From a virus, in IMG/VR virus record IMGVR_UViG_3300031862_000018, positions 1 through 35,464 of that record: a stretch of DNA of 35,464 nucleotides, one strand, 5' to 3'. Shown here piece after piece: positions 19,742-35,464 of the stretch. Position 1 is the stretch's first letter; every line of letters begins with the position of its first letter. Both the position numbers and the translations under genes were made by a program. The notes beneath the pieces are model-generated. The model searched no databases, was not told the origin of the DNA, and saw only the letters and a program-made list of their open reading frames with translations.

Positions 19742-19783
19742 GATTTTCCCCTTGGTTTTCCTCATATAAACTGATTTTCCCCT
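19742..19783. repeat. Two direct repeats GATTTTCCCCT, 31-bp spacing, next to attP core
   Basis: Copies at 19742-19752 and 19773-19783, start-to-start 31 bases, i.e. about three helical turns, ending 10 bases before the tRNA-like core. Phased repeats flanking a core are expected of arm-type integrase or excisionase sites; the role is inferred. Confidence 0.55.
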
Positions 19784-19792
19784 GAAGAATCC

Positions 19793-19840
19793 ACAGGACT
19801 TCGAATCCTGAGGTCGGGGGTTCAAATCCCTCCGGGCGCG
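19793..19840 (+). other. attP core: 3' half of tRNA-Arg(UCG)
   Basis: CAGGA (19794-19798) and TCCTG (19806-19810) enclose a 7-base loop CTTCGAA with anticodon TCG. Variable bases AGGTC are followed by a T arm (GGGGG-TTCAAAT-CCCTC, 19816-19832), then the acceptor strand CGGGCGC and discriminator G (to 19840). No D arm or 5' acceptor strand is present upstream, and no CCA follows, so it is a partial tRNA as expected for a phage attP that restores the host gene on integration. Adjacent to the integrase. Confidence 0.85.
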
Positions 19841-19937: not shown

Positions 19938-20939
19938 TCAATCTTTTTCAAGAAGTTTCACGGCTTGCTTTTTCCTGTCCGGCGAGGTGTGGGAATAGAG
20001 TAAAGACGTCATACTAGACCCATGGCCAAGAATCTCCGCGATTGTCACGATATCCACGCCGGCGGCCAGAAGGCGCGTCGCGAATGTATGCCGGCAGAGG
20101 TGAAGATGAAAAGGAACGCCCGACCGCTTTCTTATTTGTTTGATTGTTCTCCGAAAAAGATCGGGCTGGTGCCGGTTCGGGATGTCAAAGACAAATTCAC
20201 CGGTTCGCGGTTGTTTAAAAATGATTTTTTTTGCCCGACCATTGATCGGGACCAGCCGCTGCTTCTCTCCTTTACCTCTTATCTCTATTTCCTCATCCCG
20301 CACGTTCCGCCACTTGAGATTCAGAATTTCAGATTTTCTAAGTCCGGTCATGAAGGCAAGTTCGATAAAATCGGGAATGATTTTCTGCGCGGGGGATTGA
20401 GCTGAGGAAGCCACTGCCATTGCCCCTGCCATGATCCTTTTTATATCTTCGGCGCTCAGGTCATGAATTTCCGGCCTCTCCTTGAAAAACTTGATCTTCC
20501 TGACCGGATTTTGGCCGTGGAATACTTCCCAATCTATGGCGCGATAAAAAAGACTTCTCAAAAGTTGACAATGGCGATTCACGGTGGCGCGGGACTTTTT
20601 GTTTTCCAAAAGCCAGGACCGCATTTTCTCGATATGGAAAGGTGAAATATCGCCAAGATAGTTCAGGTCAAGATTCTTGAAATATTCAATCATTCTGTCT
20701 AGGCGATATTTTTCCTCCCTGGCTGAGGTTGGTTTTTGGATTTTCGCCCAATCATAATACTGCGCTACGATTTCCTTAAGACCGATATCCCGGGACCGGC
20801 TGCCGCGTCTAAGCGATTCCGCGAGATCCCGAGCACGCTCAAGGGCAAGGCTGTACTCGTCAGTTTTAAGGGATCGTCGGATTCTCTTGCCGGAGATCCA
20901 GACGTCCAGCCAGAATCTTTTTCCCCGCTTCTTGATCAA
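19938..20939 (-). CDS. int: Tyrosine recombinase integrase
   Basis: 333 aa, TTG start (20939-20937) whose TTGA overlaps the stop of the 50-aa ORF upstream; the N-terminal KKRGKRFWLDVWISGKRI is the usual start of such integrases. A SAM-like core-binding domain is at ~50-150. Catalytic residues: R201 (FMTGLRKSEIL), a beta-hairpin Lys around 223-226, H280 and R283 (HLCRH), H306 (LGHGS) and nucleophile Y315 (LLYSH). It integrates the phage at attP (19793-19840), directly beyond its 3' end. Full-length and intact. Confidence 0.95.
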   Translation of the reverse strand: MIKKRGKRFWLDVWISGKRIRRSLKTDEYSLALERARDLAESLRRGSRSRDIGLKEIVAQYYDWAKIQKPTSAREEKYRLDRMIEYFKNLDLNYLGDISPFHIEKMRSWLLENKKSRATVNRHCQLLRSLFYRAIDWEVFHGQNPVRKIKFFKERPEIHDLSAEDIKRIMAGAMAVASSAQSPAQKIIPDFIELAFMTGLRKSEILNLKWRNVRDEEIEIRGKGEKQRLVPINGRAKKIIFKQPRTGEFVFDIPNRHQPDLFRRTIKQIRKRSGVPFHLHLCRHTFATRLLAAGVDIVTIAEILGHGSSMTSLLYSHTSPDRKKQAVKLLEKD

Positions 20940-21088
20940 GACATCTCTTGCTGTTTGCTTTTTCCCGGCCTTCGTTTTTTGTCTCTGATAATCCTTGGCT
21001 CTATCAGCGGCGGAGGCTCGCCTTTTTCTGGCCAGAGAAAATCGACTCTTTCGCCGGTCTTTTTATCGACTTGGATGATGTATTTCAT
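20936..21088 (-). CDS. Small ORF coupled to the integrase start
   Basis: 50 aa on the minus strand, ATG 21088-21086 and TGA 20938-20936, so its stop overlaps the integrase TTG as TTGA. Rich in Lys, Arg, Glu and Pro, with no known domain. Upstream of its ATG there is no convincing SD. The exact overlap suggests translational coupling or a leader for int rather than chance. It could also act as an excisionase-type accessory; not recognised. Confidence 0.5.
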   Translation of the reverse strand: MKYIIQVDKKTGERVDFLWPEKGEPPPLIEPRIIRDKKRRPGKSKQQEMS

Positions 21089-21120
21089 TTTGGTTATTAT
21101 TTTTCAAAGGTGACAAGGCA

Positions 21121-21324
21121 TTATTTTTTTATGAGTGATTCAATATTTAAACCCGCAATTCCGCCCATTATTAAAAAAATACAAACAGCCGTGATGATAA
21201 CCGTTGCGGCAGCCATAATTTTAAGTAAAACTGCCCCTGATTCTACGGGTTTATCTTTTAAAAGCAATTCCCACATTCTGGTAAAAATATAGGCACCGAT
21301 CATTAAACCTATTGCTTGGATCAT
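21121..21324 (-). CDS. Two-transmembrane small membrane protein in the lysogeny operon
   Basis: 67 aa with a strong AAGGAGGG SD ahead of ATG 21324. Hydrophobic segments at ~2-21 and ~33-57 form a hairpin with a charged loop (LLLKDKPVESG) between. Its start overlaps the repressor's stop, so it is co-expressed with the repressor in the prophage state. Inner-membrane location is read from the sequence; a superinfection-exclusion or lysogenic-conversion role is inference. No signal peptidase site needed. Confidence 0.7.
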   Translation of the reverse strand: MIQAIGLMIGAYIFTRMWELLLKDKPVESGAVLLKIMAAATVIITAVCIFLIMGGIAGLNIESLIKK

Positions 21325-21596
21325 AGTTCCCTCCTTTTTAATTTTTTCAATGCCTCATAATCAATAGTAATAAGACCCCTTTTTGTGGGACAAATATCTT
21401 CAATTTTTAAACCTAAAGCTCTTGCAATTTTATCTAAAGTTTTTAAAGTTGGATTTGCTTTAAATTGTTCTATTTTCCCTATAACCTTTTCTCCAACCTG
21501 GGCTTTTATAGCTAATTCTTTTTGGGTCAATCCTTGGTCTTTTCGTTCATTTGAAATACGTTTCCCAATATATTTTATAGCTTCTTTAAAGTCCAT
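21321..21596 (-). CDS. XRE-family HTH repressor (CI-like)
   Basis: 91 aa, minus strand. The N-terminal HTH (~10-65) reads RISNERKDQGLTQKELAIKAQVGEKVIGKIEQ and is the classic Xre/Cro fold (given in parts: RKDQGLTQKELAIKAQVG, KVIGKIEQ). The remainder, with LDKIARALGLKIEDI, completes the five-helix domain, and a short basic tail follows. No LexA-like protease domain. It faces the rightward early genes and precedes the membrane protein and integrase, as expected of the lysogeny regulator. The SD (AGAGGAG) is ~14 bases from ATG 21596. Confidence 0.85.
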   Translation of the reverse strand: MDFKEAIKYIGKRISNERKDQGLTQKELAIKAQVGEKVIGKIEQFKANPTLKTLDKIARALGLKIEDICPTKRGLITIDYEALKKLKRREL

Positions 21597-21620
21597 TTGG
21601 GAAATTAAAACTCCTCTTAA

Positions 21621-21626
21621 ATTATA
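21621..21626 (-). promoter_or_regulatory. Possible -10 box of the repressor promoter
   Basis: Read on the minus strand, TATAAT lies at 21626-21621, 25 bases upstream of the repressor ATG and just before its AGAGGAG. No convincing -35 is seen at 16-18 bases, so activity may be weak or need activation. Confidence 0.4.
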
Positions 21627-21722
21627 CTAAAATATTTTGATATATTTCATCTATTTTTTATTAATCTATATAACTTAAAGATAATAATATAATTAAACAT
21701 GAAAATAAATTTAAAATAACTC

Positions 21723-21750
21723 TTGACTTTTTATAAATAGATATTATAAT
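21723..21750 (+). promoter_or_regulatory. Rightward early promoter (sigma-70 type)
   Basis: TTGACT (21723-21728), 16-base spacer, perfect TATAAT (21745-21750). The predicted start is near 21757, about 20 bases before the HNH gene ATG (21778). The region is very AT-rich. A perfect palindrome covers the -10, so repression by a bound dimer is expected. Confidence 0.8.
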
Positions 21751-21755
21751 ATCTA
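21738..21755. promoter_or_regulatory. Perfect 18-bp palindromic operator candidate
   Basis: TAGATATTATAATATCTA is identical on both strands and contains the TATAAT -10. Its position over the promoter and opposite the repressor gene makes it the obvious repressor operator. I saw no second copy in the repressor-early intergenic region. Confidence 0.65.
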
Positions 21756-21777
21756 CATGGTTCTCAAAGAGGATATA

Positions 21778-22212
21778 ATGGATATTAAAAAATCTCTTGT
21801 TCAGACAGGAAAGCACGCGGGAGAAAAAAATGGTATGTGGAAAGGCGGGGTAGCAGAATATCCTAATCATTTTATTTTAAAAAAAAGGCGCCTTGAGATT
21901 CTTAAGCGAGCAAAGGGTAAATGCGAAATATGTGGGGAATCTGCTTATGAAGTACATCATATAGATTTTTCTAAAAACAATCATTCGTTAGATAACCTCA
22001 TTTATCTTTGTCGCAATTGTCATCTTGCACTTCATATGCCCGAAGCTAGACCAGGAAGGCCAGCAAAAATTTTATATAAAGGAATGACCGCAAAAGAAAT
22101 TCGCCAAAAAACGGGCCTATCTTTTGCTACCATATACAAATTTATAAGAGGCGAAAAATTAAGGGTTGGAAATTTAGATAAAATTAATTTGGTAGTCGGA
22201 GATGGAAATTGA
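21778..22212 (+). CDS. HNH endonuclease fused to a C-terminal HTH
   Basis: 144 aa from ATG 21778 (SD AGAGG), preferred to ATG 21757, which lies at the transcription start and has no SD. Zinc-finger/HNH core: CEICGESAYEVHHID (~47-61) and NLIYLCRNCH (~70-79), with both Cys pairs and the His pair present. The C-terminal part (~100-140, MTAKEIRQKTGLSFATIYKFIRG) is a homeodomain-like HTH similar to that of 22393-22755. It is the first early gene, far from the terminase with which phage HNH proteins are often associated, so a DNA-targeting or regulatory role is likely. Confidence 0.8.
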   Translation: MDIKKSLVQTGKHAGEKNGMWKGGVAEYPNHFILKKRRLEILKRAKGKCEICGESAYEVHHIDFSKNNHSLDNLIYLCRNCHLALHMPEARPGRPAKILYKGMTAKEIRQKTGLSFATIYKFIRGEKLRVGNLDKINLVVGDGN

Positions 22213-22385
22213 CTATCCAACTCTTGACCAAAAAGCAGGTAGCTGAATTTCTTCATGTTTCCATCGACACCATAGACAACTATTGCAAAAAGCGGCTCCT
22301 GCCATTCATCCAACTTCCCGGAGGTAAGCGATTCAATCCCATTGACCTCAATAACTTCATAGAACGTCGGAAATTCCAAAGGTAA
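22209..22385 (+). CDS. AlpA / excisionase-like small HTH protein
   Basis: 58 aa, TTG start overlapping the HNH stop as TTGA, with GGAG 7 bases ahead. The sequence LTKKQVAEFLHVSIDTIDNY...RLLPFIQLPGGKRFNPIDLNNFI is the 'HTH_17' excisionase/AlpA winged-helix pattern (helix-turn-helix ~6-25, wing ~30-42, shown in parts). Such proteins bend DNA or regulate integrase genes, so this is the best candidate for Xis of the attP at 19793. It is short and easily missed by length cutoffs. Confidence 0.75.
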   Translation: MTIQLLTKKQVAEFLHVSIDTIDNYCKKRLLPFIQLPGGKRFNPIDLNNFIERRKFQR

Positions 22386-22392
22386 TTTATCC

Positions 22393-22755
22393 ATGTCACA
22401 ACAAGATTTAGCACTCAATCCAGGAATTGGCAATCTAAAAAACAACAGGATTTCTGGATTCCAAATGTATCTCTACACGATGTTTATCACAATGAAAAAA
22501 TGGCGGACTGATGACATCGCTAAAAAAATGGGAATTTCTAGTGATACCCTTTATAGATATATTCGAGGGGATAAAAATTTTCCTTTTGATAGATTCCTGG
22601 ATTTCTTAAAAGCGACAGGCGATTTAGACTATCTCAAATTTATAGCTAATGAAGTTGGATGCACTTTAATCCAGAAAATTAAAAGTGAACGGTTTGCCAA
22701 GGATTTGGCGGAAATCGGAAGACTTCTAACCGAAAGTGCCAGCAACAAACAATGA
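22393..22755 (+). CDS. HTH regulator, CII-like early protein
   Basis: 120 aa, ATG 22393 with AAAGG upstream. Residues ~36-70 (WRTDDIAKKMGISSDTLYRYIRG) form an HTH, and the rest is mostly helical, with a C-terminal helix. Size and gene order (third early gene after the repressor-controlled promoter) fit the phage CII/YmfL-type regulatory group, but I cannot assign one. It overlaps the next gene by ATGA. Probable transcription activator of lysogeny or late genes. Confidence 0.6.
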   Translation: MSQQDLALNPGIGNLKNNRISGFQMYLYTMFITMKKWRTDDIAKKMGISSDTLYRYIRGDKNFPFDRFLDFLKATGDLDYLKFIANEVGCTLIQKIKSERFAKDLAEIGRLLTESASNKQ

Positions 22756-22937
22756 TGATTAAAAGACCAAAAATAAAAAACGATCTAAAAAAAATGCTGG
22801 ATTACAACGCAATGCTTGCTATCGAGCTTTACAAAGAAAGGAAAAAAATAAGGGAACGATGGGAGGGAGAAATAGAAAGAAGGCTTGCCATAATTGAGCA
22901 ACATTTAGAGATTTTCAAGCCGGGAATAAATAAATGA
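22752..22937 (+). CDS. Small coiled-coil early protein
   Basis: 61 aa, ATGA-overlapped with both neighbours. Highly charged, with a helical run of Lys/Glu/Arg (YKERKKIRERWEGEIERRL) that suits a short coiled coil. No motif. The tight overlaps imply one transcript with the HTH genes. Function unknown. Confidence 0.55.
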   Translation: MMIKRPKIKNDLKKMLDYNAMLAIELYKERKKIRERWEGEIERRLAIIEQHLEIFKPGINK

Positions 22938-23044
22938 CACCCGAATTCAAATTTTGGCGGGGACGCCCGCTTAGATCAGATAGCGATCGAATCAATGAAG
23001 AAAAGCAAGCTATCTTTGGTCTTCATATAAAAGGTGATTTTTGA
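22934..23044 (+). CDS. Very short early ORF (36 aa)
   Basis: ATG 22934 overlaps the previous TGA (ATGA); stop TGA 23042-23044. It reads MTPEFKFWRGRPLRSDSDR... with a Trp, Arg-rich first half. Below usual length cutoffs; supported mainly by the overlap. No motif, function unknown. Confidence 0.45.
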   Translation: MTPEFKFWRGRPLRSDSDRINEEKQAIFGLHIKGDF

Positions 23045-23049
23045 GTTAG

Positions 23050-23238
23050 ATGATCTTAAACATTCATGAGAAGAAGATATTGCACGATCAAATAGAGAGG
23101 CAGAAGAAAAGATGGGAAGAAAAAGCGGAAAAAAGAAGGAAAGAAGATTGGAGACATAATGAAAAGCATTTTCATAATCCCATACAACAAAAAAAGTCTG
23201 ACGATGGCTTTCTGGCGAGCGTTCGGACGCTATTTTAA
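23050..23238 (+). CDS. Small charged hypothetical protein
   Basis: 62 aa, ATG 23050, 5 bases after the previous stop but without a clear SD. Basic and helical, with a 'RKKRWEEKAEKRRKEDW' type stretch (shown in short form). Its 3' end overlaps another frame, 23159-23269. No known domain. Either frame, or both, may be translated. Confidence 0.4.
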   Translation: MILNIHEKKILHDQIERQKKRWEEKAEKRRKEDWRHNEKHFHNPIQQKKSDDGFLASVRTLF

Positions 23239-24112: not shown

Positions 24113-25147
24113 ATGGAAAAACAGAAAGACAAACCCCAGGGGAAAAAAACAACTGAAATTATCTCCCATCAGGAAGGTCAAGAAAAGTTGGTCGCCCTCA
24201 AAGTGGATTTCGGTTCAATCTATGTCCGGATCAAGGGCGAGCAGATACTTAGACCAATCAAAGCCGAGATGATGTTGTATGAGAAGTTGGGCCACATCTA
24301 CAAAGTCGCCGACAAATATGCGATCACGGCCTCGGGCTATACGCACCTCAACAAGGTCGCATCCATAAGCATAGTCACGCCTCAAAGGGTGGTCATCGAT
24401 GGAGTGGCGAAGCCGAACCCGCACATAGAGCGGAACTCCGACACCAAGGCTATCGAGACTGTTAACATCCGTAAAATCGGCATCGGATATTCCCCGGCCG
24501 GTAATGTGACGGTCATCGATAAGACCCTCTTCTACAACGTCTATACATATTTCATCCAATCGATCCAGGCCAAAATGAAGAGAAAAAAATGGGATGATAA
24601 ATCAAAACGTCTGTCCGACGAACCGATGTATCCCAACTGTGCAGTCACGGGGATAGCCGGAGAAAGACCGAAAATTGAGGGATCTTGGGCCTTTTTCCCG
24701 ACGGCACCCCCGCTCGGGCTCTGGGTGAATTACAAGGATCCGGCGATTCTGGATTGTCTCGAGGAGCACACACAACGCCAGCGATTCGGCGACCGGATTG
24801 CCCAGAAGATAGTCGAGAGGAATATCCTCAAGGACCATCCGGCGATCGGCCTCTCGAACGTCTTCCCGAAGGACGGAACCTCCGGGACCTATGCCTTCGT
24901 GACAGTATATGGCTATCGTCATGAGTTCGAGGCGCCAAATATCGCCGAGATCCTCGAGCAGGCGGATAAGCGTTCAGACACATTCGAGACGACCGCGGAG
25001 GTGATTGACCAGGTGGAGGAGCATGAGGAGAAGGCCGCCATAAATGAGGTAGTGACCGAAGAGGGCGAAGAGAAGCCAAAGCCATTTGGAAATCCAGCCG
25101 TCGACAAAGAGCCGCCACCCGAATTTTTCGAGGGAAAGAAGAAATGA
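24113..25147 (+). CDS. GC-rich gene of recombination module, candidate annealing/recombination protein
   Basis: 344 aa from ATG 24113 (AAGGAG upstream; an earlier TTG lacks it). I do not recognise the family. Visible: an N-terminal Lys/Gln-rich tail (~1-30), then MLYEKLGHIYKVADKYAITASGYTHLNK (in parts), PQRVVIDGVAKPNPHIE, ETVNIRKIGIGYSPAGNVTVIDKTL, and a C-terminal Glu/Pro-rich tail (from ~285). It directly precedes and overlaps a PD-(D/E)XK nuclease, as annealing proteins do with their partner exonuclease (RecT/RecE, Redbeta/exo). That pairing is the only reason for the role. Lines 24361 and 24841 are 55-63% GC, higher than neighbours. Confidence 0.5.
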   Translation: MEKQKDKPQGKKTTEIISHQEGQEKLVALKVDFGSIYVRIKGEQILRPIKAEMMLYEKLGHIYKVADKYAITASGYTHLNKVASISIVTPQRVVIDGVAKPNPHIERNSDTKAIETVNIRKIGIGYSPAGNVTVIDKTLFYNVYTYFIQSIQAKMKRKKWDDKSKRLSDEPMYPNCAVTGIAGERPKIEGSWAFFPTAPPLGLWVNYKDPAILDCLEEHTQRQRFGDRIAQKIVERNILKDHPAIGLSNVFPKDGTSGTYAFVTVYGYRHEFEAPNIAEILEQADKRSDTFETTAEVIDQVEEHEEKAAINEVVTEEGEEKPKPFGNPAVDKEPPPEFFEGKKK

Positions 25148-26190
25148 TCGAGGCCATAGAATCAGAAAAAATCATCAATGGCAACGGAGTCTTAATCGAA
25201 CAACTTAATGAGATAGCCAGCGAAATTATTAACCGATTCGATTCAAAGAGACAAAACAAAAGAGAACCTTATGATCACTCTGACATGAATTGGGCTTCCG
25301 AAATCGGCCATCCTTGCAAGCGATTTTTGGTCTATGCCCGCCTGAATTGGAAAGACCGCCAGCTTATGGATATCGATGGGGAGTATAGGGTCGAGGAAGG
25401 CCAACGGTATGAATGGGAGCTCAAAAAGGAACTTGGCGATATAGGATTCGAACTGAACGAGACCCAGCGCACACTCTTGATTCCCGAGTTCAAGATAAAA
25501 GGCAAGATTGATGGACTCCTGCCCATAAAAGCAAAACTCGCTGATTACCCAGACCTCAGGCAGGCCCCAAGCGAGCTGAAAAGTATCAGCCCCAATTATT
25601 GGGATTCAACCAGGACAATCGAAGACATTAAACGGCACAGGGCCTGGTGGATACGTGGCTATCCAAGCCAGCTTAATGTCTATATCTATGCCTCTGGAAG
25701 TCCCTTCGGATTTTTCATTCTAAAGACTTTTGGAAAAAGACCGCGCGTATTGCCTATGCTATTTGATGGGGAGCTTATTCGGGCCGACTTCGCCAAGATC
25801 GAAGACGTTAACCGGCACGTGGAGGCTAAAACATATCCTGAGCCTATACCATACGACCCGCAAATTTGTGAAATGTGCGGCTTCTCTCATTTATGTCTGC
25901 CCTTGAAGACTACGGATTTTTCTGAGATTCCGAATTCGGAGATTCCTATACTGAACCACTTTTTAGAACTCAAAGATTGGAACAAGCAATATGAAGAACT
26001 GAAGTCTATCTTGATAGGAACCAAAGAAAAGCCGGGCCGGTATTATGGCAAAAATGCGATCGTAGGTGATATCGAAATCTTGACAACGATTCAGAATCGC
26101 ACTTTCTATGAAGTTCCGAAGGATGTGAAAGAACCTTATGGCGAAAAGCGGGAAATAATCATCACAAAAATTCAGAGAATAGGAGACTGA
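25144..26190 (+). CDS. Cas4-like PD-(D/E)XK nuclease with four-Cys iron-sulfur pattern
   Basis: 348 aa, ATGA overlap with the upstream gene. Nuclease motifs: E85 region, D123 (KGKIDGLLP), E144-L-K146 (PSELKSIS), and QxxxY (Q176-Y180, SQLNVYIY). Cys58 (HPCKR) and the C-terminal Cys242, Cys245, Cys251 (ICEMCGFSHLC) match the 4Fe-4S layout of Cas4/AddB-type exonucleases. Probable 5'-3' end-resection enzyme acting with the 24113 protein in phage recombination. Length is larger than stand-alone Cas4 (~200), with ~90 extra C-terminal residues. Confidence 0.8.
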   Translation: MIEAIESEKIINGNGVLIEQLNEIASEIINRFDSKRQNKREPYDHSDMNWASEIGHPCKRFLVYARLNWKDRQLMDIDGEYRVEEGQRYEWELKKELGDIGFELNETQRTLLIPEFKIKGKIDGLLPIKAKLADYPDLRQAPSELKSISPNYWDSTRTIEDIKRHRAWWIRGYPSQLNVYIYASGSPFGFFILKTFGKRPRVLPMLFDGELIRADFAKIEDVNRHVEAKTYPEPIPYDPQICEMCGFSHLCLPLKTTDFSEIPNSEIPILNHFLELKDWNKQYEELKSILIGTKEKPGRYYGKNAIVGDIEILTTIQNRTFYEVPKDVKEPYGEKREIIITKIQRIGD

Positions 26191-26191
26191 A

Positions 26192-26950
26192 ATGAATGAA
26201 AATTTAGAGACGCGTATAGTGAAATTGCCCGATGAGGCCAATATGATTCAGATTTTAGATCAAGGCGGCCTCATCAAAGCCAACGATTTTCTGCTCGGAA
26301 TAAAAGGCTTGAAAAAACAAATAGACGAAATATGGGATCCGGTTATCGAAGCGGCTTATAAATCCCACCGGGAGGCATTAAGTCAGAAACAAAAATTTAC
26401 AAACCCTTTGCTCTTTGCCGAACAGATCGTGAAGAAGCGGATCTCATCCTATTTAGCAGAACAGGAAAGGCTTCGCCGCGAGGCAGAGGAGGCAAATCGC
26501 AAACTGGAAGAGGAAAGATGTCGACTAGAGGAAGAGGCACTCAAAAAAGCCCAGGAGGCAGAGGAGAAAGCTCGCCAGGCGGAGTTCGAGGCTGCCGCAT
26601 CGTTTGACTCATCTGAAAAAAAGGCAAAAGCCGAGGAGGAGGCTAAAAAGGCGAAAAAGGAGGCGGACAAGATAATCGAAGCAGCAGCCGAAAAGGAGAA
26701 ACAATTTGTACCACGGCTGGTCGTCGAAGTCCCGAAAACCAGCGGCCTGACAGCACGGGAGGATTGGAAATTTGAAATCGTGGATTTTGGATCTTTCCTT
26801 TCAGCCATCATTTCAGGAACAGTTCCTTTGCAGGCAATAAAAACTGACGATGTTTTTATAGGCAAAATGGTTCGGACGATGAAAAACGAGCTCAACTGGC
26901 CAGGAGTTCGAGTTTATTCTGAAAAAAACATTTCCGTCAGGTTGAGCTGA
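26192..26950 (+). CDS. Coiled-coil protein of the recombination module
   Basis: 252 aa, ATG 26192, AGGAG upstream. N-terminal globular part (~1-80) contains WDPVIEAAYKSHREAL, then a long Glu/Lys/Ala-rich coiled coil (~85-170), then a C-terminal domain (~185-252, DWKFEIVDFGSFLSAIISG). Proteins with this order (short domain, KEE-rich coil, small domain) accompany recombination and nuclease genes in many phages. No catalytic motif. Structural or regulatory partner of the nuclease (inference). Confidence 0.6.
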   Translation: MNENLETRIVKLPDEANMIQILDQGGLIKANDFLLGIKGLKKQIDEIWDPVIEAAYKSHREALSQKQKFTNPLLFAEQIVKKRISSYLAEQERLRREAEEANRKLEEERCRLEEEALKKAQEAEEKARQAEFEAAASFDSSEKKAKAEEEAKKAKKEADKIIEAAAEKEKQFVPRLVVEVPKTSGLTAREDWKFEIVDFGSFLSAIISGTVPLQAIKTDDVFIGKMVRTMKNELNWPGVRVYSEKNISVRLS

Positions 26951-28711: not shown

Positions 28712-29533
28712 ATGACGAATGGATTTAAGTATCAGAAGGTTTTGCCCCTTGATGAGAATAGCAAAATAATAGACCAATTTGGCTGGCTACCCGTCTCGGT
28801 ATTTCGTCCAGAAAAGAGGCCTCAATGGGAAAATATCATTTGGGATAGTGGAGATCATGCAGGAACTAAAAGGAGCAAGGATGCTAAATACTTACCAGGT
28901 CTTCGCTATAGTCGCTTTCATCCTCATCTTGCAGAGGTTGTTCTCCGGTATTGGTCTCAACCTAACGAGTTGGTTATTGACCCCTTTGCTGGAAGGAGCA
29001 CACGAGCAATTGTTGCCATATTTTTAGGGCGCAAATATATAGGATATGAGATTGTGCCTGAGACGGCCAAGAGAACCCAACAAAATGCAGATGCCGTTAT
29101 TTTGGGCAAGGCTGAAATTAGATGCTTAGATGGACGATATTTAGAGGGACTAGCCGACGAGAGCGCAGACTTGGTTTTTACCTGTCCTCCTTACCATCGC
29201 CTAGAACGATACAATAGCATGCCGGGTCAACTATCTGATATTAAAGAATATCCAAGTTTTTTAGATGCTATCCAAGAGGCTGCACAAAATATAGCACGAG
29301 TGTTACGGAAGCAGCGATTTCTTTGCTGGGTCTGTGCTGATTGGAGAGAGGGAGGGGATTTTCGGCTTTTTCACAAGGATAGTCTCGATATATTTGAGCG
29401 AGTTGGCCTAATACCCTGGGATATAGTAATTATTAAAAATGACAGTCCTTTTGCGGCATTGCAGGCAGGCAAAGTGGCTGCCAAACGATATACAAGTAAA
29501 ATTCACGAATATCTTTTGGTATTTCGCAGATGA
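28712..29533 (+). CDS. DNA methyltransferase, N4/N6 type
   Basis: 273 aa, ATG 28712 with GAGGAGG. SAM-binding motif I DPFAGRS (~90-96) precedes motif IV TCPPY (~157-161), so the order is I-IV. N-terminal ~40-70 and the C-terminal ~200-273 likely hold target recognition. The TCPPY catalytic loop shows amino-group methylation of cytosine or adenine. No restriction partner next to it, so an orphan enzyme that protects phage DNA or controls gene expression is most likely. It follows the replication protein by 9 bases. Confidence 0.85.
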   Translation: MTNGFKYQKVLPLDENSKIIDQFGWLPVSVFRPEKRPQWENIIWDSGDHAGTKRSKDAKYLPGLRYSRFHPHLAEVVLRYWSQPNELVIDPFAGRSTRAIVAIFLGRKYIGYEIVPETAKRTQQNADAVILGKAEIRCLDGRYLEGLADESADLVFTCPPYHRLERYNSMPGQLSDIKEYPSFLDAIQEAAQNIARVLRKQRFLCWVCADWREGGDFRLFHKDSLDIFERVGLIPWDIVIIKNDSPFAALQAGKVAAKRYTSKIHEYLLVFRR

Positions 29534-34286: not shown

Positions 34287-35338
34287 TGATGAAATGGGAT
34301 AAGGCAAAGATTGATACTTTGCGTCAACTCGCAGAATCGGGTATGTCTTATCAGAATGTTGCCAAAAAAATGGGACTACGATTTAAGCAGGTAGAGTCTG
34401 CGGCTATACGTTATAAAATTAGAAAATCAACCTGGAGCTGGAATGAAGAACGCAGAAAAGATATTTTGGAACTGCGAATTCGGGGCAAAACTTATGTCGA
34501 AATATCAAGAGAATTATCCCAAAAGTATAATCGGAAAATCAGTGCCGAAGCGATAAGAAAAATTGCCCTATCATATGGAATTTCAGACCAATTGCTTAAT
34601 AATCCAGATGACATTAAGTTATACGATTCGCCTGTATTGCCAATGGACGATTATATGATTTCTTGCGATTATCATTCGCCTTATTATAGCGAGCTTTGGA
34701 CAAATCGCTATCTGGCCATGGCGCAAAAATACGGGGTCAAAAAGCAAGTAATTGTAGGTGACCTTTTTGACATGGATTTTGCCAAAAGGCATCCAATTAC
34801 AGATGGTGAGGAGAAATCTTCTATTGAAGAGGAAGAAAAGCAGGGTGACCCACTGATCCAGGCTCTTTCCTGGTTTGATGAGACCTGGCTGGTATGTGGA
34901 AATCATGAAACGAGAATAAGTCGAATTACAGAAGCAAGAGTTCAATTCAGTCAACTTGTTAGCTATTTCTGCAAAGATTTGATTCAAAAGAAATTTAATT
35001 TTACGGTTTTTGATAAAGTTCAAATTGGAGAGAAATTTCTTCTTGTCCACCCCAAAAGTTATAGCCAGATCTCTGGAGCTACCGCTGTTCGCCTGGCCGA
35101 AAAATACAACAAACACATCTTTGCTGCACATGGCCATTTCTGTGCTTTTCGCTGGGACAGGTCGGGAAAATATATGGCAATGGATATTGGCGGGATATTT
35201 GACCAAAGAAAGATCGCTTATGCAAACCTATCGACGACAACTCATCCAAACTGGAATCCGGGCTTTTCAATGATTTACCAGGGATTTCCTTATCTTTTTC
35301 ACGAAGGAACTGATTTTTCATTCTGGCTTGAAAGGTAA
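34286..35338 (+). CDS. HTH-metallophosphoesterase (calcineurin-like) beside packaging genes
   Basis: 350 aa. N-terminal ~1-100 holds two helix-turn-helix-like repeats (DTLRQLAESGMSYQNVAKKMG and IRGKTYVEISRELSQKY, shown in parts). The C-terminal ~120-350 is a metallophosphoesterase: D128-x-H130 (SCDYHS), GD159-x2-D162 (VGDLFD), GNHE (N206-H207), LVHPKS, and GH-x-H-like AAHGHF. It hydrolyses phosphoester bonds with two metals; HTH targeting implies a DNA-linked role. Its end recurs at 1-185 with one substitution in protein. Followed directly by the XhlA-like and terminase genes. Confidence 0.8.
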   Translation: MMKWDKAKIDTLRQLAESGMSYQNVAKKMGLRFKQVESAAIRYKIRKSTWSWNEERRKDILELRIRGKTYVEISRELSQKYNRKISAEAIRKIALSYGISDQLLNNPDDIKLYDSPVLPMDDYMISCDYHSPYYSELWTNRYLAMAQKYGVKKQVIVGDLFDMDFAKRHPITDGEEKSSIEEEEKQGDPLIQALSWFDETWLVCGNHETRISRITEARVQFSQLVSYFCKDLIQKKFNFTVFDKVQIGEKFLLVHPKSYSQISGATAVRLAEKYNKHIFAAHGHFCAFRWDRSGKYMAMDIGGIFDQRKIAYANLSTTTHPNWNPGFSMIYQGFPYLFHEGTDFSFWLER

Positions 35339-35464
35339 ACTATCATGAGGGTTCTTAGAAGCTCAATAAAAATGAGAAACGACAGGATCGTGGTAGTTGA
35401 ACAGGCAATCGTAAAACTTGAAGCATTGACAAATGAGAAGATTGGAAACATAAACAAAGAAATG
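35154..35464. repeat. Right copy of the imperfect terminal direct repeat
   Basis: Matches 1-311 with 8 substitutions; see the left copy. The window ends inside the XhlA-like gene. Confidence 0.95.
35345..35464 (+). CDS. 5' fragment of XhlA-like gene (second copy of 192-488)
   Basis: The frame starting ATG 35345 gives the first 40 residues of the protein at 192-488 and is cut by the window edge at an internal Met. The two protein copies are identical over this stretch; the two base differences in the coding part (227 and 239 in the left copy) are silent. The two substitutions just upstream (190-191) fall between genes. Confidence 0.9.
   Translation, partial: MRVLRSSIKMRNDRIVVVEQAIVKLEALTNEKIGNINKEM

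Follow-up and report, generated by a model that had tools for sequence, protein, structure and literature searches.

An HNH–helix-turn-helix gene that leads the early operon in a probable temperate phage: a candidate free-standing homing-type endonuclease

The stretch of DNA that we have analysed, referred to here as "the window", is a virus record of 35,464 bp that carries a tailed phage: the terminase is encoded at positions 964-2166 and is followed by structural genes. With its integrase gene, tRNA-type att site, divergent XRE repressor gene, and Xis-like and CII-like genes, the window reads as a temperate phage. The two ends of the window (positions 1-311 and 35154-35464) are 97.4% identical over 311 bp, with 8 mismatches; the contig looks near-complete and either circular or terminally repeated, with two slightly differing copies of its end. 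Also located on the record are a Cas4-domain exonuclease-like protein (25144-26190; PHROG 1990, 1.4e-13), followed by an exonuclease-family protein (26192-26950; PHROG 10477, 3.8e-19), and an N6/N4 DNA methyltransferase (28712-29533; PF01555, 1.3e-19), which is a candidate protector of self DNA against the nuclease that is described below. The features around the locus of interest are the following:

19778-19840 (+): tRNA-like stretch near the integrase gene (Rfam tRNA, 32.5 bits; ARAGORN does not report it)
19938-20939 (-): tyrosine integrase gene (PF00589, 2.2e-24)
21321-21596 (-): divergent XRE/CI-type repressor gene (HTH_3, 2.6e-11; PHROG transcriptional regulators and repressors)
21723-21750 (+): sigma-70 early rightward promoter, TTGACT-16-TATAAT, 11 of 12 consensus matches
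21738-21755: perfect 18-bp palindrome TAGATATTATAATATCTA over the -10 element, candidate operator
21768-21772 (+): Shine-Dalgarno-like AGAGG, seen in the sequence 5 bp before the ATG at 21778
21778-22212 (+): HNH-HTH protein gene, 144 aa (an alternative upstream start at 21757 would give 151 aa)
21820-22035 (+): HNH part, residues 15-86 (PF01844, E 1.3e-5, above cut-off; structure model)
22069-22209 (+): C-terminal HTH, residues 98-144 (PF13443 and structure model; XRE/HipB-like)
22209-22385 (+): excisionase/MerR-like small HTH gene (PF12728, 4.3e-9)
22393-22755 (+): CII-like regulator gene (PHROG 101, CII-like, 1e-6; Phage_CP76, 9.7e-5, below cut-off)

The tRNA-like stretch, read by eye, resembles the 3' portion of a tRNA-Arg whose anticodon is TCG, and is the probable core of attP. 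The XRE gene faces the rightward operon that is led by the HNH-HTH gene, across an intergenic region of 14% GC; judged by gene order and family matches, the region is arranged as lysis-lysogeny control regions usually are. The excisionase-like gene, which also matches PHROG 66 (excisionase and transcriptional regulator, 6.8e-7), begins at a TTG codon that overlaps the stop codon of the HNH-HTH gene.

The promoter consists of a -35 element (TTGACT, 21723-21728) and a -10 element (TATAAT, 21745-21750) that are separated by a spacer of 16 bp. An earlier reading of the same DNA, made from the letters alone and called here the sequence-only reading, had described a perfect 18-bp palindrome that contains the -10 element of a good sigma-70 promoter, and both halves of this description are borne out: TAGATATTATAATATCTA is perfect, and exceeds all other perfect palindromes of the window in length, while the promoter agrees with the consensus at 11 of 12 positions. 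When the local 180 bp (16% GC) are shuffled with their dinucleotides preserved, a palindrome of at least 18 bp arises in 78 of 5000 shuffles; when the whole window is shuffled, one of at least that length arises somewhere in 53 of 300; TATAAT itself supplies much of the 8-bp centre, and the five outer pairs then have a probability of about 0.0075 at the local composition. The palindrome is suggestive, i.e. above trivial chance, but not overwhelmingly so. Its best other copies on the + strand, with 4 mismatches each, are located at 1958-1975 and at 21779-21796, the latter at the start of the HNH-HTH gene. As a conserved, shared motif the palindrome has been rejected: exact copies occur in 11 stretches of viral contigs, all of them within unrelated ORFs that have no repressor context, and the promoters of the four relatives that are introduced below (G001-G004) contain no comparable perfect palindrome. 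Transcription is expected to start at about 21757, so the palindrome would end before the RNA begins, and any effect of it would be exerted as DNA; from its position, it is a plausible candidate for the operator of this phage's own repressor.

The frame start taken by the sequence-only reading, 21757, coincides approximately with the expected transcription start and has been replaced by the ATG at 21778: the protein is probably of 144 residues, because AGAGG precedes this ATG and because the starts of the relatives align there, those of L160, L161 and L163 at most two residues away (alignment A3) and that of L162 a few residues earlier.

In the first gene downstream of the promoter, an intact HNH core is followed by a C-terminal HTH, as the sequence-only reading had proposed; sequence, families, structure model and relatives agree on this anatomy, and they likewise support the position of the gene as the first of the early operon, with the repressor facing the palindrome-covered promoter. 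The HNH part contains the motif N..W.GG, the zinc cysteines C49, C52, C78 and C81, the histidines H60 and H61, N73 and H82, and the motif residues are invariant in all five members of the family, with the exception of K22/G23. The protein belongs to the HNH superfamily by its PF01844 match above the cut-off, by the invariance of C49, C52, H60, H61, N73, C78, C81 and H82, and by its modelled beta-beta-alpha fold. For most rows of the wider alignments, the search pattern itself required W, C49, C52 and HHI, which are conserved by construction, so that only the conservation of N73, C78, C81 and H82 is independent of the pattern. The C-terminal part matches the Cro/CI-type family PF13443 with an E of 6e-4 and 20.4 bits, under the cut-off of 22, and this match, together with the model, indicates a separate predicted DNA-binding module beside the nuclease.

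The AlphaFold2 model, built on a 32-row alignment, has a mean pLDDT of 78; in it, a helical C-terminal part stands apart from the beta-beta-alpha core, and the linker (residues 90-97) is modelled with low confidence. A single-sequence model was set aside (mean pLDDT 39.8). In VIA-align, the HNH part aligns with DotN (Z 8.1, rmsd 2.7, 63 aligned), Cas5-HNH (Z 8.0, rmsd 3.2, 68 aligned) and the HNH protein of phage GVE2 (Z 7.9, rmsd 5.5, 77 aligned), and the HTH part aligns with HipB-type antitoxin chains at Z values of about 5 to 5.8 over 47 residues (4pu7_B: Z 5.8, rmsd 2.1, 47 aligned); Z values near 8 or lower may reflect common arrangements only, and these fold relatives are leads only. Among the Foldseek matches of the model, none of 221 in the PDB reaches an E of 0.001 or less, and 1 of 1077 in BFVD does, an HNHc protein.

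In order to place the nuclease among the HNH groups, we scanned for the pattern WKGG...C..CG...HHI, which returned at least 120 stretches with 121 matching ORFs; we removed 2 ORFs truncated by a locus end, 2 in which over 200 residues follow the motif, and 2 duplicate ORFs, which leaves 115, taken regardless of HTHs. Together with the window protein and three relatives, 119 proteins were profiled, with at most 60 residues kept before the W, so that N-terminal modules are undercounted. Among these 119 listed proteins, at E <= 0.01, HNH is matched by 112 and NUMOD3, a homing-endonuclease motif, by 34; the HTH families HTH_28, HTH_23, HTH_3 and HTH_26 are matched by 4, 2, 1 and 1, respectively, counts that overlap (the window protein is in both HTH_26 and HTH_28), include four family members and come from the best 25 of 53 families. 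The stretch after HHI has a median of 47 residues among the 115 matches listed and reaches 75 or more in 13 of them; in the window protein it is 82. Some WKGG proteins have HTHs elsewhere in the chain, e.g. L092. By these motifs, the window nuclease groups with the homing-type (WKGG) phage HNH proteins, among which an HTH tail is uncommon.

The WKGG copies L046 and L125 and the related L172 (5197-6984) have HNH domains with W.G motifs inside apparent inteins; the ends of L172 and L125 resemble what we take to be ThyX thymidylate synthase. In Synechococcus phage S-EIVl (L008, 1318-3858), a gene annotated as terminase large subunit contains an HNH match, possibly an intein. The HNH-HTH gene of the window is a complete short ORF of its own, within neither an intron nor an intein: no Rfam match occurs at 20800-23200, up to E 1, and no intron was detected. 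Its identity as a defence system has been rejected, the PADLOC matches being confined to the HNH core (ZorE best, 6.6e-6). The sequence-only reading had set the gene apart from the HNH proteins that accompany terminases. The contrast stands with respect to position, the large subunit being located at 964-2166 and the HNH-HTH gene at 21778-22212, about 20 kb away on the linear record, and with respect to the WKGG grouping, although some phage matches of the protein overlap genes of the terminase region.

With the window protein alone as the query, four loci were found in viral contigs and one in genome contigs, all by the HNH core only; the same query matches 45 phage records and 49 plasmid records, and the queries L160 and L163 match 25 and 16 phage records, respectively, with none of these matches covering 80% of its query. 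A scan for HNH plus TIY returned nine loci, two of them with full-length relatives, and two alignment scans returned 20 and 27 loci, 30 of them distinct, of which the ORFs of 26 were inspected (L170, L171, L178 and L179, left out, have matches equal to those of L169 or L177). The alignment scans gave four full-length relatives, two of them in contigs that the HNH-plus-TIY scan had also found. These relatives, 41-46% identical to the window protein, are located in the phage contigs G002 (locus L160), G001 (L161), G003 (L162) and G004 (L163), in phages that are otherwise divergent. Single-protein scans with the terminase and the integrase of the window found no relatives. Tyrosine integrase (PF00589) and resolvase (PF00239) are each matched in 0 of the 4 relative contigs, all of which may be incomplete.

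In G001, G002 and G004, the HNH-HTH gene is located directly after a small Cro-like XRE gene (HTH_3, 3.1e-9 in G002 and 9.9e-10 in G004; the Cro-like protein of G001 is identical to that of G002), and in G004 a divergent gene, which matches HTH_3 weakly (E 0.054), lies opposite the pair. Promoter-like sites that match the consensus at 12 of 12 positions precede the cro-HNH unit in all three contigs, and the gene of G003 has a site of its own with 10 of 12, counts that carry no shuffle control; in G001 and G002, the -10 element and the first ATG of the Cro-like ORF overlap, so that this ORF must start later. The gene of G003 is located between tail genes and other genes, on the strand opposite to all other listed ORFs. 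G001 has two further HNH matches besides the HNH-HTH gene (contig C1, 14036-14311 and 21080-21325), 37-38% identical over the HNH part.

The two halves of the protein have diverged to very different extents. Compared with the window protein, the HNH half is identical at 49/72 residues in both L160 and L161, 43/72 in L162 and 45/72 in L163 (60-68%), whereas the HTH half is identical at 9/44 in both L160 and L161, 12/43 in L162 and 8/44 in L163 (18-28%). At the DNA level, L160 and L163 share a stretch of 253 bp that is 82% identical; it opens 20 bp upstream of the start codon and ends near codon 78, and blastn reports no match between them in either the HTH part or the cro gene next to it. Over codons 1-86, the same pair is 80% identical in DNA and 86% in protein, with a dN of 0.10 and a dS of 1.6, the latter near saturation; on these values, the nuclease half is under purifying selection. 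L160 and L161 differ at six codons, three of them residue-changing, all at codons 109-132 in the HTH part. The stretch that holds cro and HNH-HTH is 98.8% identical between L160 (5480-6423) and L161 (5481-6423), whose contigs come from different samples; the other matching stretches of G001 and G002 are 72-96% identical, with one exact 23-bp match in addition, and from this comparison the cro and HNH-HTH stretch is a recently shared cassette.

When the window is compared with the four contigs one by one, HNH-HTH always ranks first in identity among the reciprocal best hits (45-48%), the two or three others per contig being at 26-41%; such an excess could also come from constraint, which weakens it as an argument for mobility. 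More identical than HNH-HTH (62%) are 4 of the 16 other proteins shared by G001 and G004 and 6 of the 19 others shared by G002 and G004, so not all comparisons point to independent movement. No allele without the HNH-HTH gene was seen among the phages examined, and for this reason insertion and homing are steps that we infer.

Several known systems resemble parts of this arrangement. The mob genes of phage T4, in the account given in PMC2988022, each encode an HNH domain with a distinct C-terminal region joined to it, and MobA and MobE are described there as nicking DNA and being over-inherited; the window gene shares with them its intergenic location and its layout of HNH plus distinct C-terminal region. 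Unlike the mob genes, it is located in the repressor and early-promoter region of a temperate phage, and its activity and mobility are predicted. The same account presents I-TevI as a homing enzyme with a DNA-binding part that has a second role, repression at an operator site, which offers a model for a possible autoregulation of the window protein by analogy, although I-TevI is a GIY-YIG enzyme and is intron-encoded. Enzymes of the I-HmuI type are characterised in PMC3943268 by an HNH core with elongated DNA-binding parts, and such phage homing enzymes can, as described there, include helix-turn-helix domains; the likeness is one of description, and the window gene differs in that no intron was detected around it. 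The phage WKGG/NUMOD3 HNH proteins share N..WKGG, the C..C zinc pair and HH..N..C..CH with the window protein, but are shorter after HHI (median 47) and have few HTH matches in Pfam. Gene 31 of the temperate phage epsilon34, which lies in the early left operon, is reported in PMC2629481 to encode a putative HNH homing endonuclease, and differs from the window gene in being described as an eaE-HNH fusion. In the L segment of Halobacterium phage phiH1 (L202, 3468-3905), the HNH gene PhiH1_255 is located about 1.3 kb from the repressor gene repR; its protein is 49% identical to the G004 relative over 47 residues, but has no HTH family match at E 0.01. In Flavobacterium phage snusmum9-1, an HNH domain is followed by C-terminal HTHs, so the combination itself is known; there, however, the nuclease is of the HNH_3 type, has two HTH stretches, and adjoins helicase and DNA methyltransferase genes. 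Our literature search did not meet an HNH-HTH arrangement at a repressor and early promoter, and we make no claim that it is absent in print.

The sequence-only reading had left open a targeted endonuclease or a regulator. Both are compatible with the locus, but relatives with a conserved HNH part and a variable HTH part narrow the choice towards a homing-type nuclease. The reading that we prefer, at a probability of about one half, is that the HNH-HTH protein is a free-standing HNH homing-type endonuclease that heads the early operon of a temperate phage and is aimed by its HTH. In the lysogen, the divergent XRE repressor would probably close the promoter by covering the palindrome at the -10 element; upon infection or induction, the nuclease would be the first product of the lytic programme, its C-terminal HTH would select a DNA site, and the HNH core would nick or cut there. 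In the likeliest case, the target would lie in the early/immunity region of a co-infecting relative without the gene, and repair would then copy the gene and its flanking control sequences into the cut relative. While the HNH module is kept, the HTH module would be replaced, or would diverge fast, and the target would change with it. This reading draws on the WKGG/NUMOD3 grouping, the intein-like copies, the relatives in divergent phages and the identity gap between the two halves, and also on the first rank of HNH-HTH in identity with the window, the bounded DNA match of L160 and L163, the shared cassette of G001 and G002, the dN and dS values of the HNH half, and the precedents of the mob genes and I-TevI. 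Against it, no intron was detected; immunity regions are variable and thus a poor target for homing into conserved DNA; an HTH of about 47 residues, as delimited here, is short for a long homing site; and the early-regulator neighbourhood that is found in four of the five loci, two of which are near-identical cassettes, could mean a function for the phage itself.

Such a function is the content of the alternative that survives best, which we nevertheless consider unlikely: a non-mobile early nuclease that serves the phage through host DNA nicking, recombination or replication start, with the HTH tethering it to phage or host sites. The promoter-like site upstream in all five loci (10-12 of 12), the adjoining early regulators, the purifying selection on the HNH half, and the overlap with the next gene, which suggests integration into the operon, are all consistent with it, as are the fold matches of the HNH part to nucleases with other roles, such as McrA and Cas5-HNH. 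It does not account well for an HTH identity that drops to 18-28% while that of the HNH holds at 60-68%, for the DNA similarity of L160 and L163, which sets in shortly before the start codon and declines towards the end of the HNH part, or for the G003 copy, located between tail and other genes against the strand of its surroundings.

Less probable still is a Cro-like regulator, whose HTH would bind the early operator and whose HNH part would be vestigial or structural, the gene replacing cro in the window. The HTH of the window is nearest to the Cro/CI type in Pfam (marginally, below the cut-off) and is HipB-like in the model, that of L162 matches HTH_3 above the cut-off (E 4.4e-5), and no Cro-like ORF of at least 50 aa is located between the repressor and HNH-HTH genes of the window. 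Three relatives, however, have a separate Cro-like gene directly upstream, no Cro-type match is found for the HTH of either L160 or L163, and the conservation of the HNH residues, including the pattern-independent N73, C78, C81 and H82, argues against decay of the nuclease.

An anti-competitor weapon, in which an HTH copied from a phage regulator would steer the nuclease to the operators of superinfecting phages, is improbable. When the window HTH is compared with 12,260 ORFs that come from 188 sources, its closest non-self match is the phage's own CII-like protein, ahead of the HTHs of the HNH relatives, and the HTH of G003 matches a neighbouring HTH gene (E 2.5e-5) on the contig that carries it. 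The match of the window HTH is weak (14.9 bits, E 0.019), though, and an unrelated ORF follows closely (E 0.038); the top matches of the G003 HTH are the G004 HNH-HTH protein and L092, not the neighbour; the HTHs of G002 and G004 have no own-genome match among the 12,260 ORFs, and that of G001 has a weak one (E 0.045, in a smaller ORF set). Such a weapon would also need a means of sparing self DNA. These matches are weak hints that HNH-HTH genes may have captured the HTHs of local regulators. The wider proposal of one HNH engine whose HTHs are swapped for ones like the phage's own regulators, and which would attack the immunity and early-control DNA of competitors and so decide which repressor system wins in a mixed infection, is likewise a long shot.

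The kind of protein proposed here for the head of this operon, a homing-type HNH nuclease, is already known; the variant part would be its slot under the early promoter and its swapped HTH reader. Even if the homing reading is wrong, the grouping of the HNH protein with homing-type proteins, outside any packaging cluster, is a useful correction. If the homing-type reading is true, a selfish or competitive nuclease, made of a conserved cutter and an exchangeable reader, would be controlled by the very switch between lysis and lysogeny, and would adjoin early regulators in several divergent phages; homing would be tied to the evolution of immunity regions.
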